A stretch of 64,000 nt of DNA. It comes from Negativicoccus succinicivorans (GTDB taxonomy: Bacteria; Bacillota; Negativicutes; Veillonellales; Negativicoccaceae). The position numbers were made by a program, and so were the translations under genes. Positions within the stretch are counted from its first letter, which is position 1, and every line of letters begins with the position of its first letter. This document shows, piece by piece, positions 20,421 through 62,255 of this stretch. The stretch lies in assembly GCF_014207605.1 (NCBI RefSeq), contig NZ_JACHHI010000003.1, positions 62,001 to 126,000 on the forward strand. The letters are read 5' to 3'. The notes under the pieces were generated by a model. It did no database searches. It had not been told where the DNA came from and saw only the letters and a program-made list of their open reading frames with translations.

Positions 20421-20715
20421 AAAAAAGCCTCCCGTCCACATCCATATCCAAATGATATGGGGACGAAAGGTATCCTTCCGCGGTGCCACCCCGCTTGACT
20501 GGTATCAGTCCGGCTTACTACGTACGGCGATTTGCGATACGCGCTTCGGGATAGCGGCCGAAGATGCCGTCGACGCCTACCCCGCGCAGCGGATCGGGTC
20601 GTATCTCCCGGGCCCATTCGCGTCGTCCTCCCGCGCCGATCTTCCACTGTCATCGGCTCGCTTTAGCGTTTGTTACGACGGTACTCTTCCCGTTCATCGA
20701 TGATTTCATTTAATT
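20421..20715 (-). promoter_or_regulatory. T-box riboswitch, predicted tryptophan-specific
   Basis: The leader RNA senses uncharged tRNA and controls the fused S-ATPase operon. The T-box core GGGTGGCACCGCGG is at 20478-20491. Stem I elements (GGGAAGAGTA, AGCGAGCC, GTGGAAG) lie at 20640-20695. The specifier is read as TGG (Trp) at 20614-20616 after GCGAA. A terminator stem (CCTTTCGTCC with GGACGGGAGG, plus an inner CCATATC/GATATGG arm) ends in T6 at 20421-20470. The specifier assignment is by alignment to known T-boxes by eye. Confidence 0.88.
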
Positions 20716-56933: not shown

Positions 56934-57170
56934 TAATAAAAAAACGCCTCATCCCTAAGGGACGAGAACGTTGTTTCCCGCGGTACCACCCTACTGGTCA
57001 TTGCTGACCGCTCAAGCGCGATAACGGTGCGACCGGCGAACACTTGCGGCATTCGCGACTCCCGAGTGATCCGCACCTATCGCATCCGCTCGGCTTCCAC
57101 CGCCCCGAGCTCTCTATGGTCTGCTGATATATGCCGTCTCGTTCATTGTCTTCTGTCAAAAATAGGTTTA
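56934..57170 (-). promoter_or_regulatory. T-box riboswitch of ileS
   Basis: T-box core AGGGTGGTACCGCGG at 56978-56992. Stem I elements AGAGAGCTCGGGGCGGTGG (57097-57115). The specifier is probably ATC (Ile) at 57068-57070, inside GCGGATCACTCGGG. The terminator is the CGTCCC-TTA-GGGATG stem with flanking pairs and T7 (56934-56973). Confidence 0.92.
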
Positions 57171-57263: not shown

Positions 57264-58796
57264 TTATTTACCGTAATTTTTATCGGCTTTGACTTCGATG
57301 CGGAATGCGTTTTCTCCCAGGGATACGCGATCGACATCATATACATCTTCGCCGTATTTCTGATCGAGGTAGTATTCCACCGCGTTTTCCGCCTGATCGG
57401 AAAGCGAATCGGGGGTCGCGCCATACGTGTATTTACCGAGAATTTCCGTGATCGCCGCGCGGTCTTCCGCCGGCAACGCTTTCGTGTAATCCATCAGTTC
57501 CAGGACCGTATGATCTTTGACGGCGGCCGGTTGTTCCGCCGCTACCTGCCGTTCGATAAAACTCGAACCCATGCGAATTTCCATCCGATACGCATTCGTT
57601 TCCAAACGATTAACGGCGGCTTTGTACGTTTCCTCACCGTACGTTTGGTTCAAATAGTGTTGCACTTCATTGCGAGCTTTTTCCACAAGGTTAGCCGCCG
57701 TGTCGCCGGCGACATACTGATTCAGGATATGCGTAATGTTATTACGGTCAGTGTCGGTCATTTGGCTCGTGAAGTCCGTCAATTCATATACGAATGCGGC
57801 GGCCGGCGCGGTCGGTTGCGCCGGAGCGACTGCCGCGCCCGGCGATTTATAATGATCGTCAGCTTTGATCTGTACATCATATGCGCCGTTTTCCAGTTTC
57901 TTCACGTCGACATCATAGAAGTCGTTGCCGTATTTCTGATCCAGGTAATGCTCAACGGCATCTTCCGCACGTTTCGCCAAATTAGCGGCGCTGTCACCGT
58001 ACGTATAGTTGCCGAGAATCGCCGTGATCTGTTCACGATCAGCCGCGGCCATTTCCTTCGTGAAGTCCGTCAGCTGCAAAACGATGCTCGCCGTGGCCGG
58101 TGCTACGTTCGATTGCGCCGGAGCGACTGCCGCGCCCGGCGATTTATAATGATCGTCAGCTTTGATCTGAACGTCGTAAGCGCCGTCTTCCAGTTTCTTC
58201 ACGTCGACATCATAGAAGTCTTCGCCGTATTTCTGACCCAAGTAATGTTCAACGGCGTCTTCCGCACGTTCCGCCAAGTTAGCGGCGCTGTCACCGTACG
58301 TATAGTTGCCGAGAATCGCCGTGATCTGTTCACGATCGGCCGCGGCCATTTCCTTCGTGAAGTCCGTCAACTGCAAGACGATACCGCCGTCAGCCAATAC
58401 GGTCGACGCGGGCACTGCAGCCGGTTCCGTCGGAGCGGGCGCTACGGTCGGTTGTGCCGGAGCCGGTTGAGCCGGAACCTGGTTAGCATCTTTGGTAACG
58501 TAAATATTCATGTGGTGGTCACTCACATCTTTATCCGTATAAACAAAGTATTGACCTTCCCCATATTTTTGGTTCAAGAAATTCTGAATATCAGCTACCG
58601 CCTGATCCACCGCGCCTTCACTGACGCCGCGTCCCAAGTAGGGTACCGCAAGATCACCGGTGTGTTGCTTATCTTCTACGGTCAGCGTCTTGCTCTGGTC
58701 ACGGAGATAATACATATCAACATCGTAATAGTTCGTCGCCATGGCGCTTGCGCCTATGGCCGCCAATACGGTTAATGCTAACGCTGTTTTTCTCAT
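57264..58796 (-). CDS. Exported protein with four tandem ~80-aa modules
   Basis: A 510-aa exported protein of no recognised family. Signal peptide at residues 1-20 (LAAIGASAMA). A divergent N-terminal module (24-105) and a Pro/Ala linker (106-140) precede four modules, near 142-225, 240-322, 335-410 and 425-510. Each follows the pattern L.DfT..m...dR..It.iL..Y..GdtaanL...A..aVehYL.QkYGe..YdVdv..le..aYdv.Ikad..Y. Modules 1 and 2 are nearly identical. The start is the ATG at 58796 after AAAGGAGG. It shares its leader RNA with two downstream-cluster genes, and the module with two others. An envelope or extracellular binding role is only inferred. Confidence 0.75.
   Translation of the reverse strand: MRKTALALTVLAAIGASAMATNYYDVDMYYLRDQSKTLTVEDKQHTGDLAVPYLGRGVSEGAVDQAVADIQNFLNQKYGEGQYFVYTDKDVSDHHMNIYVTKDANQVPAQPAPAQPTVAPAPTEPAAVPASTVLADGGIVLQLTDFTKEMAAADREQITAILGNYTYGDSAANLAERAEDAVEHYLGQKYGEDFYDVDVKKLEDGAYDVQIKADDHYKSPGAAVAPAQSNVAPATASIVLQLTDFTKEMAAADREQITAILGNYTYGDSAANLAKRAEDAVEHYLDQKYGNDFYDVDVKKLENGAYDVQIKADDHYKSPGAAVAPAQPTAPAAAFVYELTDFTSQMTDTDRNNITHILNQYVAGDTAANLVEKARNEVQHYLNQTYGEETYKAAVNRLETNAYRMEIRMGSSFIERQVAAEQPAAVKDHTVLELMDYTKALPAEDRAAITEILGKYTYGATPDSLSDQAENAVEYYLDQKYGEDVYDVDRVSLGENAFRIEVKADKNYGK
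57841..58372. repeat. Tandem DNA repeat, period 297 bp
   Basis: Two near-identical in-frame copies (57841-58137 and 58138 to about 58372, the second partial at its upstream end) encoding modules 2 and 1 of the 510-aa protein; a 99-codon period indicates recent duplication. Confidence 0.75.
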
Positions 58797-58817
58797 CTTC
58801 CAGCCTCCTTTGGCAAT

Positions 58818-58884
58818 GTCTGTCACTGTAATATAAAACTTTCAGCTGATCGCAGGGACGATCAATTGCAAACAACGGACAGAC
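58818..58884 (-). promoter_or_regulatory. Structured leader RNA, copy A
   Basis: On the minus strand GTCTGTC (58878-58884) pairs with GACAGAC (58818-58824). Inside is a GATCG/CGATC hairpin (58848-58863) and a U-rich strand. The 3' arm ends about 12 bases before AGGAGG of the 510-aa repeat protein gene. Shared with copies B and C. Confidence 0.7.
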
Positions 58885-58918
58885 TTCTGCTGCTCACATT
58901 AATACATTGTATACTTTT

Positions 58919-58947
58919 ATTATACATTTTTGTACAAAAATCGTCAA
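58919..58947 (-). promoter_or_regulatory. Promoter of the 510-aa repeat protein gene
   Basis: TTGACG (58942-58947 on the minus strand), 17-bp spacer, TATAAT (58919-58924). The spacer contains the perfect palindrome TTTTTGTACAAAAA. The promoter at 60701 is a homologous copy. Confidence 0.8.
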
Positions 58948-59147
58948 ATATTCACTCTTGTTGAGCTATTTTTGACTCAAAAATAAATTAAAGAAAATTT
59001 GCGCAGACGAGTTTTCCGATATCCGACGCGCCAGTCGGAACACTCCCGGAATATCATTTTGACCGGAAGCATTGGCGTAAAAATGTTTTACTTTTAGCCG
59101 AGGACCTGATCTATTTTTACAGATAAACAAGTCGCAAAATGCGGCAC
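58948..59147. other. Intergenic sequence, nothing recognised
   Basis: About 200 bases between a promoter and the previous gene's terminator. AT-rich in the first half; no gene or repeat seen. Confidence 0.4.
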
Positions 59148-59178
59148 AAAAAAACAGCTCCTTGCGGAGCCGTTTTTT
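59148..59178 (-). terminator. Terminator of the frameshifted repeat gene
   Basis: GGCTCC-GCAA-GGAGCT stem followed by T7 on the minus strand. Confidence 0.85.
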
Positions 59179-59183
59179 ATTTG

Positions 59184-59627
59184 TTATTGCTGTTCTTTCG
59201 CAGCCTTTGTATTCAGACGATGCTTCAAGTAGTTACGCCCGACCATCACCCGATACTGAGCCTTGCCGTTATCCGACGTGACGAATACGACTTCAAATAC
59301 ATGCTCGCCGTATTTCTGCGCCAAATATTTCGCCGCCGCTTCACAAGCCTCTTGCGGCCGGTAGCCTTCAAAATAGCCACGCAACTCTTTCTGATCCTGC
59401 GCGCTCAGACGTTTCGTGCAGTCCACGAACACGCCGCGCGAATCGGGTTGCGGCGGTACAATTTGCGCGTCGTAAGCGCCGTTAAAATAGTTGGCATCGG
59501 CTTGCATGTACTGGCCCATGCGCACGCCGTACTCATTGTAGTAGGCGCGACCGTCGGTGTAACCGTTCGGCGTTTCACCGGCTTGGCGCGGCGGTACGCC
59601 TTTCGCCGCCGGAATTACTTGTTTTTT
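59184..59627 (-). CDS. -1-frame continuation of the motif-repeat protein
   Basis: About 147 codons open from the frameshift site to TAA at 59184. It begins with a third copy of the motif repeat (GVPPRQAGETPNGYTDG, then RAYYNEYGVRMGQYMQADA) and ends with a ~75-residue module matching those of the neighbouring repeat proteins (FVDCTKRLSAQDQKELRGYF, YLAQKYGEHVFEVVF). A GTG at 59525 could start a shorter protein but has no ribosome site. Joined to the upstream frame by -1 frameshifting it would give a 341-aa exported protein. Confidence 0.65.
   Translation of the reverse strand, partial: KKQVIPAAKGVPPRQAGETPNGYTDGRAYYNEYGVRMGQYMQADANYFNGAYDAQIVPPQPDSRGVFVDCTKRLSAQDQKELRGYFEGYRPQEACEAAAKYLAQKYGEHVFEVVFVTSDNGKAQYRVMVGRNYLKHRLNTKAAKEQQ
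59578..59627 (-). promoter_or_regulatory. Predicted -1 ribosomal frameshift signal
   Basis: Slippery heptamer A AAA AAC in phase with the upstream frame (59621-59627), eight-base spacer containing the in-frame TAA, then a stacked hairpin: CCGGC/GCCGG outer arm, GGCG/CGCC, and an inner GGCG-TAC-CGCC (59578-59612). Confidence 0.65.
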
Positions 59628-60208
59628 TCGGAGTTCTCCTGCTTTTTTTCCGGCGCTACCTGCGGCGGCATGTTCGGATACATATCTTTGTTTTCCGCCA
59701 TCTTGTCCGTCATCGGGCGGGCGTCCGGATCGAAGTAACGAGCGTCCGCCTGCATGTATTGGCCCATGCGTACGCCGTGTTCATTGTAATACGCCTGACC
59801 GTCGGTATAACCGTTCATGGTTTGACCGGGGGCATACGGCTGTACGCCTTTTGCCATCGGTTTTACTTCCGGTTTTACTTCCTCTTTAACGTTCTTGTCT
59901 TGTTTTTCTTGCGGCGCTACCTGCGGCGGCACGTTCGGATAAAGATCTTTGTTTTCCGCCATCTTGTCCGTCATCGGTCTGGCATCCGGATCAAAGTAAC
60001 GAGCGTCCGCCTGCATGTACTGGCCCATGCGTACGCCGTGTTCATTGTAATACGCCTGACCGTCGGTATAACCGTTCATGGTTTGCCCTGCGGCATACGG
60101 TTGTACGCCTTGCGCCGCCGGCGTAACCTGTGCCGGAGCGTTGTCCGCGGCCAATACGCTGCCGCTGATTGCTGCCAATGCAGCCATTGCGAGTAATGTC
60201 TTTTTCAT
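59615..60208 (-). CDS. Exported motif-repeat protein, zero-frame product
   Basis: A 197-aa exported protein. Signal peptide at residues 1-21 (AAISGSVLA/AD). Two copies of a ~75-residue unit follow: GVQPYA.GQTMNGYTDGQAYYNEHGVRMGQYMQADARYFDPDARPMTDKMAENKD (broken here into its motifs GYTDGQAYYNEHGVRMGQY and DPDARPMTDKMAENKD), separated by a Lys/Glu/Pro linker. It stops at TAA 59615, right after A AAA AAC, with the third repeat in the -1 frame. AAAGGAGG precedes the ATG at 60208, and leader copy B lies upstream. Function unknown. Confidence 0.75.
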   Translation of the reverse strand: MKKTLLAMAALAAISGSVLAADNAPAQVTPAAQGVQPYAAGQTMNGYTDGQAYYNEHGVRMGQYMQADARYFDPDARPMTDKMAENKDLYPNVPPQVAPQEKQDKNVKEEVKPEVKPMAKGVQPYAPGQTMNGYTDGQAYYNEHGVRMGQYMQADARYFDPDARPMTDKMAENKDMYPNMPPQVAPEKKQENSEKNK

Positions 60209-60227
60209 CTTGCTGCCTCCTTTGTTC

Positions 60228-60296
60228 GTCTGTCGCTGGAATAAAATTCTTTCGACTGATCGCCAATGCGATCCATTTTCCAAGAACCGGACAGAC
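60228..60296 (-). promoter_or_regulatory. Structured leader RNA, copy B
   Basis: GTCTGTC (60290-60296) pairs with GACAGAC (60228-60234); inner hairpin GATCGC-ATTG-GCGATC (60258-60273). No promoter is seen directly upstream, so it is probably transcribed from 60701 through the preceding gene. Confidence 0.7.
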
Positions 60297-60320
60297 CTTC
60301 TACTTCTTTCATTAATCGAA

Positions 60321-60596
60321 CTAACGAGCGTTCGCCTGCATGTATTGGCCCATGCGCACGCAGTGTTCATTGTAATACGCCTGACCGTCGGTGTAACCGT
60401 GCATGTATTTACCCATGCGCACGCAGTGTTCATTGTAATACGCCTGACCGTCGGTATAACCGTTGATGGTCTGACCCGCGGCACACGGGTGTACCCCTTG
60501 CGCGACCGGCGTAGCCGGTACCTGAGCGTTGGCCGCGGCCAATACGCTGCCGCTGATTGCTGCCAATGCAGCCATTGCGAGTAATGTCTTTTTCAT
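60321..60596 (-). CDS. Truncated duplicate of the motif-repeat protein
   Basis: A 91-aa exported protein. The first 20 residues are identical to the downstream paralogue's signal peptide. It has two shortened copies of the motif (GYTDGQAYYNEHCVRMG, with Cys in place of Gly) and ends at QANAR. The stop is TAG where the paralogue has TAC (Tyr), followed by the same TTCGAT, so it looks like a nonsense-truncated copy. AAAGGAGG and leader copy C precede the ATG. It may still be made as a small cysteine-containing secreted peptide. Confidence 0.65.
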   Translation of the reverse strand: MKKTLLAMAALAAISGSVLAAANAQVPATPVAQGVHPCAAGQTINGYTDGQAYYNEHCVRMGKYMHGYTDGQAYYNEHCVRMGQYMQANAR

Positions 60597-60615
60597 CTTG
60601 CTGCCTCCTTTGTAC

Positions 60616-60686
60616 GTCTGTCAGTGGAATAAAATTTCGTTTCGGCGGACCGCCAACGCGATCCATTTTCCAACAACTGGACAGAC
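60616..60686 (-). promoter_or_regulatory. Structured leader RNA, copy C
   Basis: GTCTGTC (60680-60686) pairs with GACAGAC (60616-60622); inner hairpin GATCGC-GTTG-GCGGTC (60648-60663) keeps pairing through a G-U. Confidence 0.7.
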
Positions 60687-60700
60687 CTCCTGCTACTTTC

Positions 60701-60729
60701 ATTATACGTTTCGTACCAAAAAGCGTCAA
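60701..60729 (-). promoter_or_regulatory. Promoter of the motif-repeat genes
   Basis: TTGACG (60724-60729 on the minus strand), 17-bp spacer, TATAAT (60701-60706). Sequence around it, GAATATTTGACG and the spacer, is homologous to the promoter at 58919. Confidence 0.8.
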
Positions 60730-60795
60730 ATATTCCTTCCGTTAAAAGCAAACATATCGTTTTCAAGCGACCGCTTAGCACCGGCCTTTTTCCGT

Positions 60796-62055
60796 TCAGT
60801 CGTCCGCGCGACCGCGTCCCGGCCATCCGTCGACGCCTTCCAGGATATCCCAAATGATTCGACCGACACCGTCTTCCAACCATTCCGGGCGACGGTCGTC
60901 CGCACGATCACTTGCGATTTCGATGCGATAGACATGCGCATTCACGCGTTCGTAACTGACGTCGTAGGCCCGATAGCCGTACGCACGTTCCAAGTAACGT
61001 TCCACATCGGCCGCCGCGTGCTGCGCCAGCCGCTCCGCATCCCGACCTGTCGCGTAGCTGTCCAAGATGCGACGAATTTCACTGCGATCGCGATTTGTCA
61101 AATCCGACGTGCGATCGCGCAATTCAAAAATGACATCGACTTTCTGCCGATCGCCTTGTTTGGCTTTCACATCAATACGGAATTCGAAGCGATTTTTATG
61201 CCCGGTCTGCACGCGCACCACATCGACATCGAAACGATCGCGGCCGTACGTTTGGTCCAGGTATTCTGCGACGGCCTGTTTAGCCGCTGCGGCATAACGG
61301 CGCGCGAAGCGGTCTTCATTGGCGCCCGTCCTCAGACCGTCGGTCGCGTCCTGAATACGTTCCGCGATGAGCCATTGATCGCGGTGCGTCAATTGGCCGG
61401 AGAAATCACGCAAATTATAGTTGGCAGAGAAGTAATATTCCCGCTGCGTGTCTTGGTAGTTTTTGTCGCCCCGCACGATGACCCGATACGCATTGCTCGA
61501 GAGCCACTTCGTTTCCACGCGGTAGTGGCGGCTGCCATAAGCGCGATCCAAATAATGCTGGACGGATTGACGCGCCTGTTCCGCAAGTTTTGCGGTCGTG
61601 TCGCCGGCCGTGTAGCGACCGAGCAAACCGCGAATGTCGGAACGCTGCGTTTCCGTCAGCGAATTCGTTTCATCTTCAAATTCAAGAATCATGTACGCGG
61701 GCGCGTTCTGATCTTTCGCATGCGCACGCCGGTTATCATCGTAACGTACATACAGATCCAATCGACCCGAGCGCGTCCGATCCGCCGCAGCGACGTCATA
61801 CACATCGCGACCGTAAGCGGAATCCAGATACCTTTCGAGCTCGTCTTCCAAACGATTCATATCGCGTTCGGAAATGCGACCGCCCGCATACGGACGCGCC
61901 GCGCGGTTCAAGTGCACGCGGTCACGGACCGACAGGCTGCCCGTCTGATCGACTACGGAAAACGCACGGACATCATAGTAATCCGCGGCAAACGCGCTGC
62001 CCGCGACGCAAAGAAGCGTCAACATCGATACTAATGTTTTTTTCGTTCGTTTCAT
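60796..62055 (-). CDS. Exported Arg-rich protein with tandem ~80-aa modules
   Basis: A 419-aa exported protein, signal peptide 1-23 (CVAGSAFA/AD). It has an N-terminal module (YYDVRAFSVVDQTGSLSVRDR, YLDSAYGRDVYDV) and three further modules of the same family as the 510-aa protein (LTETQRSDIRGLLGRYTAGDTTAKLAEQARQSVQHYL and LTNRDRSEIRRILDSYATG-type segments). It is strikingly Arg/Asp-rich and Lys-poor compared with its relatives. The start is the ATG at 62055 after AGGAGGG. No leader of the A/B/C type and no clear terminator are seen. Function unknown. Confidence 0.72.
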   Translation of the reverse strand: MKRTKKTLVSMLTLLCVAGSAFAADYYDVRAFSVVDQTGSLSVRDRVHLNRAARPYAGGRISERDMNRLEDELERYLDSAYGRDVYDVAAADRTRSGRLDLYVRYDDNRRAHAKDQNAPAYMILEFEDETNSLTETQRSDIRGLLGRYTAGDTTAKLAEQARQSVQHYLDRAYGSRHYRVETKWLSSNAYRVIVRGDKNYQDTQREYYFSANYNLRDFSGQLTHRDQWLIAERIQDATDGLRTGANEDRFARRYAAAAKQAVAEYLDQTYGRDRFDVDVVRVQTGHKNRFEFRIDVKAKQGDRQKVDVIFELRDRTSDLTNRDRSEIRRILDSYATGRDAERLAQHAAADVERYLERAYGYRAYDVSYERVNAHVYRIEIASDRADDRRPEWLEDGVGRIIWDILEGVDGWPGRGRADD

Positions 62056-62255
62056 CAAAGTCCCTCCTCACCGGGAATACGGTCTCACAGGATCGTCACC
62101 ATTGGGAAACGTACTTGTACTTGTCTTTGTCTATATTTTAGCACTCTTTGGTAAAAACCTCGCAAAGACGCGCCATTTTTGAGCCTTTTCTAATGTTTAA
62201 AACGCACTTCATCCTTTTGTTTCCAGACTTCTTTGTCATGTCAGGCGCCGACAAC

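Follow-up and report, generated by a model that had tools for sequence, protein, structure and literature searches.

Three genes for exported proteins in Negativicoccus succinicivorans are preceded by copies of a short leader that is real, limited to one genus, spread by duplication and ordinary in kind, apparently an expression or stability element for which a regulatory role is a candidate only. The copies lie on the minus strand of the stretch of 64,000 nucleotides analysed here (the window), which comes from a genome of 1.4 Mb. As a structure, the leader is moderately supported.

A pattern search with GTCTGTC-N{35,65}-GACAGAC gave exactly three matches in the window, all on the minus strand (58818-58884, 60228-60296 and 60616-60686), whereas 100 shuffled windows gave a mean of 0.01 matches and never reached three. 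This agrees exactly with the first-pass annotation, which had placed three copies there, each containing an inner hairpin (with a G-U pair in the third) and each preceding an exported protein of a single cluster; the sequences bear out these features as well. In the sister species Negativicoccus massiliensis, the syntenic place carries two copies, an A-type and a B/C-type one. The arms of the three copies in the window are spaced as GTCTGTC-N53..57-GACAGAC, and each copy runs from GUCUGUC through an inner hairpin of 5-7 bp to GACAGAC, followed, after a short spacer, by AGGAGG and the start codon. Copy A (58797-58893, minus strand) is situated immediately 5' of the start codon of gene A (58796); its closing stem is formed by 58884-58878 with 58824-58818, its inner hairpin occupies 58864-58847 and AGGAGG is at 58809-58804. 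Directly 3' of the stop codon of gene C lies copy B (60209-60305, minus strand), with the closing stem at 60296-60290 and 60234-60228, the inner hairpin at 60273-60258 and AGGAGG at 60221-60216. The corresponding parts of copy C (60597-60695, minus strand) are found at 60686-60680 with 60622-60616, at 60664-60647 and at 60609-60604. The Shine-Dalgarno sequence is strong, and 8 nt (A) or 6 nt (B and C) separate it from the closing stem. The arms of the inner hairpin are GATCG/CGATC in A, GATCGC/GCGATC in B and GGATCGC/GCGGTCC, with the G-U pair, in C. An upstream ORF, which can be read in B from an ATG within the hairpin to a TGA overlapping the start codon, was rejected because, by eye, the ATG is missing in the B/C-type copy of N. 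massiliensis and the frame is different in C. An extra helix UGGAA/UUCCA inside B and C was also excluded, being missing in that N. massiliensis copy and mismatched in A.

Gene A (57264-58796, minus strand) encodes an exported protein of 510 aa in which a beta-alpha-alpha-beta-beta domain, weakly POTRA-like in prediction, recurs as four clear repeats and a weak fifth one. In Pfam and NCBIfam, nothing matched this domain above the curated cut-off. Among 61 genomes of the order, four have it, all from this family, according to a model that includes members from three of these four genomes; in the window, the repeat proteins of the cluster span 57264-62055 (minus strand). The fold predicted from a 16-row alignment is beta-alpha-alpha-beta-beta with a pLDDT of 84. 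When solved structures were searched with it, the best matches were the POTRA domains of FtsQ and BamA/TamA, all of them weak: the best E value is 0.027, none reaches 0.001, and the first ten have a TM by query of 0.42-0.60. The predicted POTRA-like fold is a lead, not a finding. Gene B (59615-60208, minus strand) encodes an exported protein of 197 aa with GYTDG repeats and is continued in the -1 frame to 59184. Gene C (60321-60596, minus strand) encodes a short exported protein of 91 aa and is a partial duplicate of gene B, with 82% identity over 66 residues. The GYTDG repeats of gene C contain cysteines (NEHCVRMG against NEHGVRMG in B) and the gene ends early; judging from its sequence, it is a decaying or diverging duplicate.

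Within gene B, a candidate programmed -1 frameshift was noticed at 59184-59640 (minus strand). It consists of AGGAG (59640-59636), the heptamer A_AAA_AAC (59627-59621), the stop codon TAA (59617-59615) and a hairpin (59612-59578). In both species, AGGAG lies 8 nt before the heptamer, TAA three bases after it and the hairpin 8 nt after it, and the hairpin folds moderately better than shuffles (z -1.28 and -1.62). In both species, 145 codons of the -1 frame are free of stops, against 5 and 9 stops in the other two frames. This frame starts with one more GYTDG repeat, recovered with the gene B protein at E = 4.1e-20 and 9.5e-21, and also contributes a domain alignable with the repeats of gene A. 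The dN and dS values are 0.036 and 0.076 after the shift against 0.041 and 0.243 before it, which suggests, weakly, purifying selection after the shift. PMC4066793 counts an A_AAA_AAC cluster of insertion sequences among the proven instances of frameshifting. Alternatively, a frameshift mutation may have been fixed in the common ancestor. Two T-box leaders were also seen in the window. The one at 57000-57155 (minus strand) reached 42.8 bits against an Rfam gathering score of 93 (E = 3.3e-7), its match being cut by the end of the stretch searched, and the gene 3' of it is presumably isoleucyl-tRNA-synthetase-like; the second, at 20456-20706, is above the Rfam gathering score.

The common position of the leaders upstream of the cluster genes is due to duplication. 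When 200 nt of upstream and 120 nt of coding sequence were aligned, the homology between the A-type and the B/C-type was found to run from the promoter to the signal-peptide codons and to be much lower beyond. Between the two N. massiliensis copies, 18, 15 and 15 of 20 positions are identical in the 20-nt blocks from -140 to -81, 7 and 11 of 20 in the mid-leader blocks, and 15, 15, 14, 13 and 12 of 20 in the blocks from -40 to +59; outside the homology, the values are 7, 9 and 4 of 20 before it and 9, 11 and 5 of 20 after it. The leader thus travelled with the promoter and the export signal, and copies A and B/C descend from a single duplicated cassette of promoter, leader, Shine-Dalgarno sequence and signal peptide. 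The earlier claim that the start of gene A is unrelated to those of B and C is contradicted by this homologous DNA. Copies B and C are a further tandem duplication, gene C being a partial copy of gene B. Their unpaired internal columns are alike at 32 of 41 positions, and each of them agrees with the N. massiliensis copy at 30 of 41. Since the divergence between B and C is near that to the N. massiliensis copy, the duplication is not very recent; it may have been lost in N. massiliensis.

Promoter-like sites (TTGACG-17-TATAAT, 11 of 12) were found on the minus strand upstream of copy C (60701-60729) and copy A (58919-58947). No sigma-70-like promoter of its own was found for copy B, where the -10 box is cut by the tandem-duplication junction, so that B is probably transcribed from the C promoter. 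The distance from the -10 box to the start of the stem is 14 nt in copy C and in both N. massiliensis copies, which places the stem close to the presumed 5' end of these transcripts; at copy A, extra DNA separates the promoter from the stem.

Among the genomes searched, the leader is limited to the genus Negativicoccus. The comparison within the genus comprises two genomes with five leader copies in all (3 + 2), and a search of genome contigs with protein A returned a single locus, LT700188.1 of N. massiliensis, with 92% identity. A covariance model was built from all five copies. In its own genome it found the three copies, with 90.7 bits for copy A, which is itself among the model's sequences, and the next best match had E = 1.74. 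Against 60 relatives, credible matches were obtained only in the two Negativicoccus genomes, with weak matches at E<=1 in 14 of the 58 others. Likewise, a survey of 300 genomes of the class gave credible matches only in the two Negativicoccus genomes and nothing credible among the other 298; at E<=0.05, five of these 298 match, which is fewer than the roughly 15 expected by chance. Five places with weak matches were viewed by eye and none was leader-like. Genes with repeats of the same kind as in the cluster do occur in the two other genera of the family, yet both genomes lack the arm pattern, and the model had no match in the stretches around these genes. Phage records gave no leader match. 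The leader had been called undescribed, which is in line with Rfam 15, where no family overlaps the leaders at the gathering score or at E<=5. No description of it was found in the portions of the literature that cover Negativicoccus riboswitches, Negativicutes structured RNA, the SLH motif and N. succinicivorans. The first-pass annotation had proposed a covariance-model search of related genomes and held that finding simple duplications only, or no covariation, would speak against the leader. Copies were indeed found in a second species, and none that is credible outside the genus; the copies are duplications of a larger cassette, which largely corresponds to the adverse outcome, but the inner hairpin shows covariation once the second species is included.

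That the closing stem could gate translation, as had also been suggested, is not borne out by the predictions. Folding of the five copies together with 60 nt of coding sequence left the Shine-Dalgarno sequence, which lies outside the closing stem, unpaired at 0.49-0.70 at 37 °C, against shuffled-leader means of 0.36-0.58. The predicted openness was higher in 5/5 copies, with 137-165 of 200 shuffles at or below the native value and no copy significant singly. Across the five copies, it ranged from 0.50 to 0.76 at 20 °C and from 0.51 to 0.77 at 50 °C. For copy C, folding with 60 nt of coding sequence gave a minimum-energy structure without the closing stem (ensemble 0.78), which counts against the stabiliser reading discussed below. 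An RNA thermometer is not supported, as the openness is nearly constant from 20 to 50 °C and the ribosome site is not paired in the stem, and neither is a terminator, as no terminator-like site was predicted to overlap the leaders. An open, temperature-insensitive Shine-Dalgarno sequence and the lack of such a site argue against a gate operated by temperature or by the closing stem, and fit a leader that would fold beside the ribosome site and hold it accessible. Further upstream, a gene of the same repeat family (60796-62055, minus strand) has a different leader at 62056-62130 (minus strand), in which UCCU can pair with the ribosome-site AGGA around a small ACCG/CGGU hairpin. This leader is conserved in N. 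massiliensis, folds no better than shuffles and is a likelier translational gate than the three GTCTGTC leaders.

Regulation could also take the form of a genus-specific riboswitch or protein-binding leader, in which the invariant GUCUGUC/GACAGAC stem and the inner loop would be a recognition site whose occupancy alters the translation of envelope proteins. The closing stem and the GAAA stretch are invariant in otherwise diverged leaders, beyond the needs of simple pairing, and the placing of the copies before several proteins of one cluster is regulon-like. However, the duplication explains that placing, no alternative structure, terminator or sequestered Shine-Dalgarno sequence was predicted that could be an expression platform, and copies are missing elsewhere in the genome and the class. 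Riboswitch aptamers are expected before different genes or lineages, whereas only five copies in two genomes of one genus were found. A regulated leader of this kind is rather unlikely. It is similarly doubtful that a genus-specific regulatory RNA, its invariant stem read by a protein or ligand, was spread by cassette duplication and jointly sets how much is made of several envelope proteins that carry predicted POTRA-like repeats. The case for a new class of regulatory RNA is weak, and regulated gating is unneeded to explain the data.

The case for structure rests on the substitution pattern and not on stability, because single-sequence folding energies are no better than those of shuffles (z -0.31, -0.70 and -0.47). 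This result, and the fact that the copies are duplicates, would suit a structure without function, i.e., leftover similarity of a duplicated upstream region. The consensus of the five-copy alignment has 17 pairs, three of them with two-sided changes. In the shuffle control, the number of pairs with a two-sided change and that of pair types were reached in 53/500, which again suits such leftover similarity; for the percentage paired, the cells with a two-sided change and the covariation score, the figure was 8/500 each, and sliding the pairing partners lowers all pairing measures. The covariation signal comes mainly from the inner hairpin. Every substitution in its core keeps pairing (U-A, U-G and C-G at one pair, C-G and U-G at two others), and with 4 of 12 columns variable, 30 of 30 cells are still paired. 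When these changes were placed at random, full pairing arose in 10 of 20000 trials, a figure that is optimistic since haplotypes were taken as independent and copy B as the reference; the two outermost, poorly kept pairs had been left out beforehand. On this comparative evidence, the inner hairpin is supported as an RNA structure. In the closing stem of the five copies, 14/14 columns are invariant, against 14/41 unpaired internal columns (Fisher p = 1.4e-5), and 7/7 pairs never vary, with no G-U pairs and no covariation. Such invariance indicates constraint, not pairing, and the closing stem is constrained yet unproven as a stem; with five related copies, selection on the stem and on its sequence cannot be told apart. 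The earlier view that pairing is kept across the copies is borne out for the inner hairpin, in two species. Leftover similarity alone is unlikely, given the pairing kept in the inner hairpin and the invariance of the closing stem relative to the rest of the interior. Quite improbable is a DNA-level site, in which GTCTGTC and GACAGAC would be the two halves of a site, immediately 3' of the promoter, for a DNA-binding regulator: invariant arms without G-U pairs would fit it, but the arms are 53-57 nt apart, GTCTGTC-N5..35-GACAGAC is missing from the genome, and the G-U pairs kept in the inner hairpin are meaningful in RNA only.

The reading that we prefer, with about an even chance of being correct, is that the leaders are 5'-UTR elements inherited with the duplicated cassette, which would act as a constitutive 5' stabiliser or translation enhancer for exported-protein mRNAs. 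The cassette, with its promoter, structured leader, strong Shine-Dalgarno sequence and signal peptide, would drive the exported-protein cluster in Negativicoccus. The leader RNA would fold near the 5' end of the mRNA, shield it from decay and keep the ribosome site single-stranded, and the outcome would be stable, well-translated mRNAs. Of the promoter-like sites upstream of A and C, that of C would put the leader near the 5' end. The extra DNA between promoter and stem in copy A counts against this reading, as does copy B, which has no such site and would lie between two cistrons of a C-B mRNA; a stabiliser that acts at the 5' end would require processing there. On this account, a bacterium can assemble a small group of co-expressed exported proteins by copying a ready-made expression and export cassette, and the compact leader of a little-studied diderm Firmicute would be usable for mRNA-stability tests.

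Several known systems resemble this leader. According to PMC6429828, the SLH motif is a candidate riboswitch that precedes genes for S-layer-homology proteins in Synergistaceae, Clostridia and Negativicutes; it resembles the present leader in that a structured element, known from Negativicutes, precedes surface proteins. When the stretches around the six SLH-domain matches in the N. succinicivorans genome were searched with the covariance model, nothing convincing turned up (best E = 3 with filters off). The RNA thermometers ROSE and fourU also have a 5'-UTR structure before the ribosome site, but the present leader differs in that its ribosome site is unpaired in the stem. The 5' mRNA stabiliser leaders of Bacillus subtilis aprE and Escherichia coli ompA share with it a stem-loop near the 5' end (a position that is presumed here), followed by a single-stranded, strong Shine-Dalgarno sequence, before exported proteins. 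The likeness to aprE and ompA noted here is one of layout, and it is these examples, together with the position of the leader, that suggest a stabilising role.
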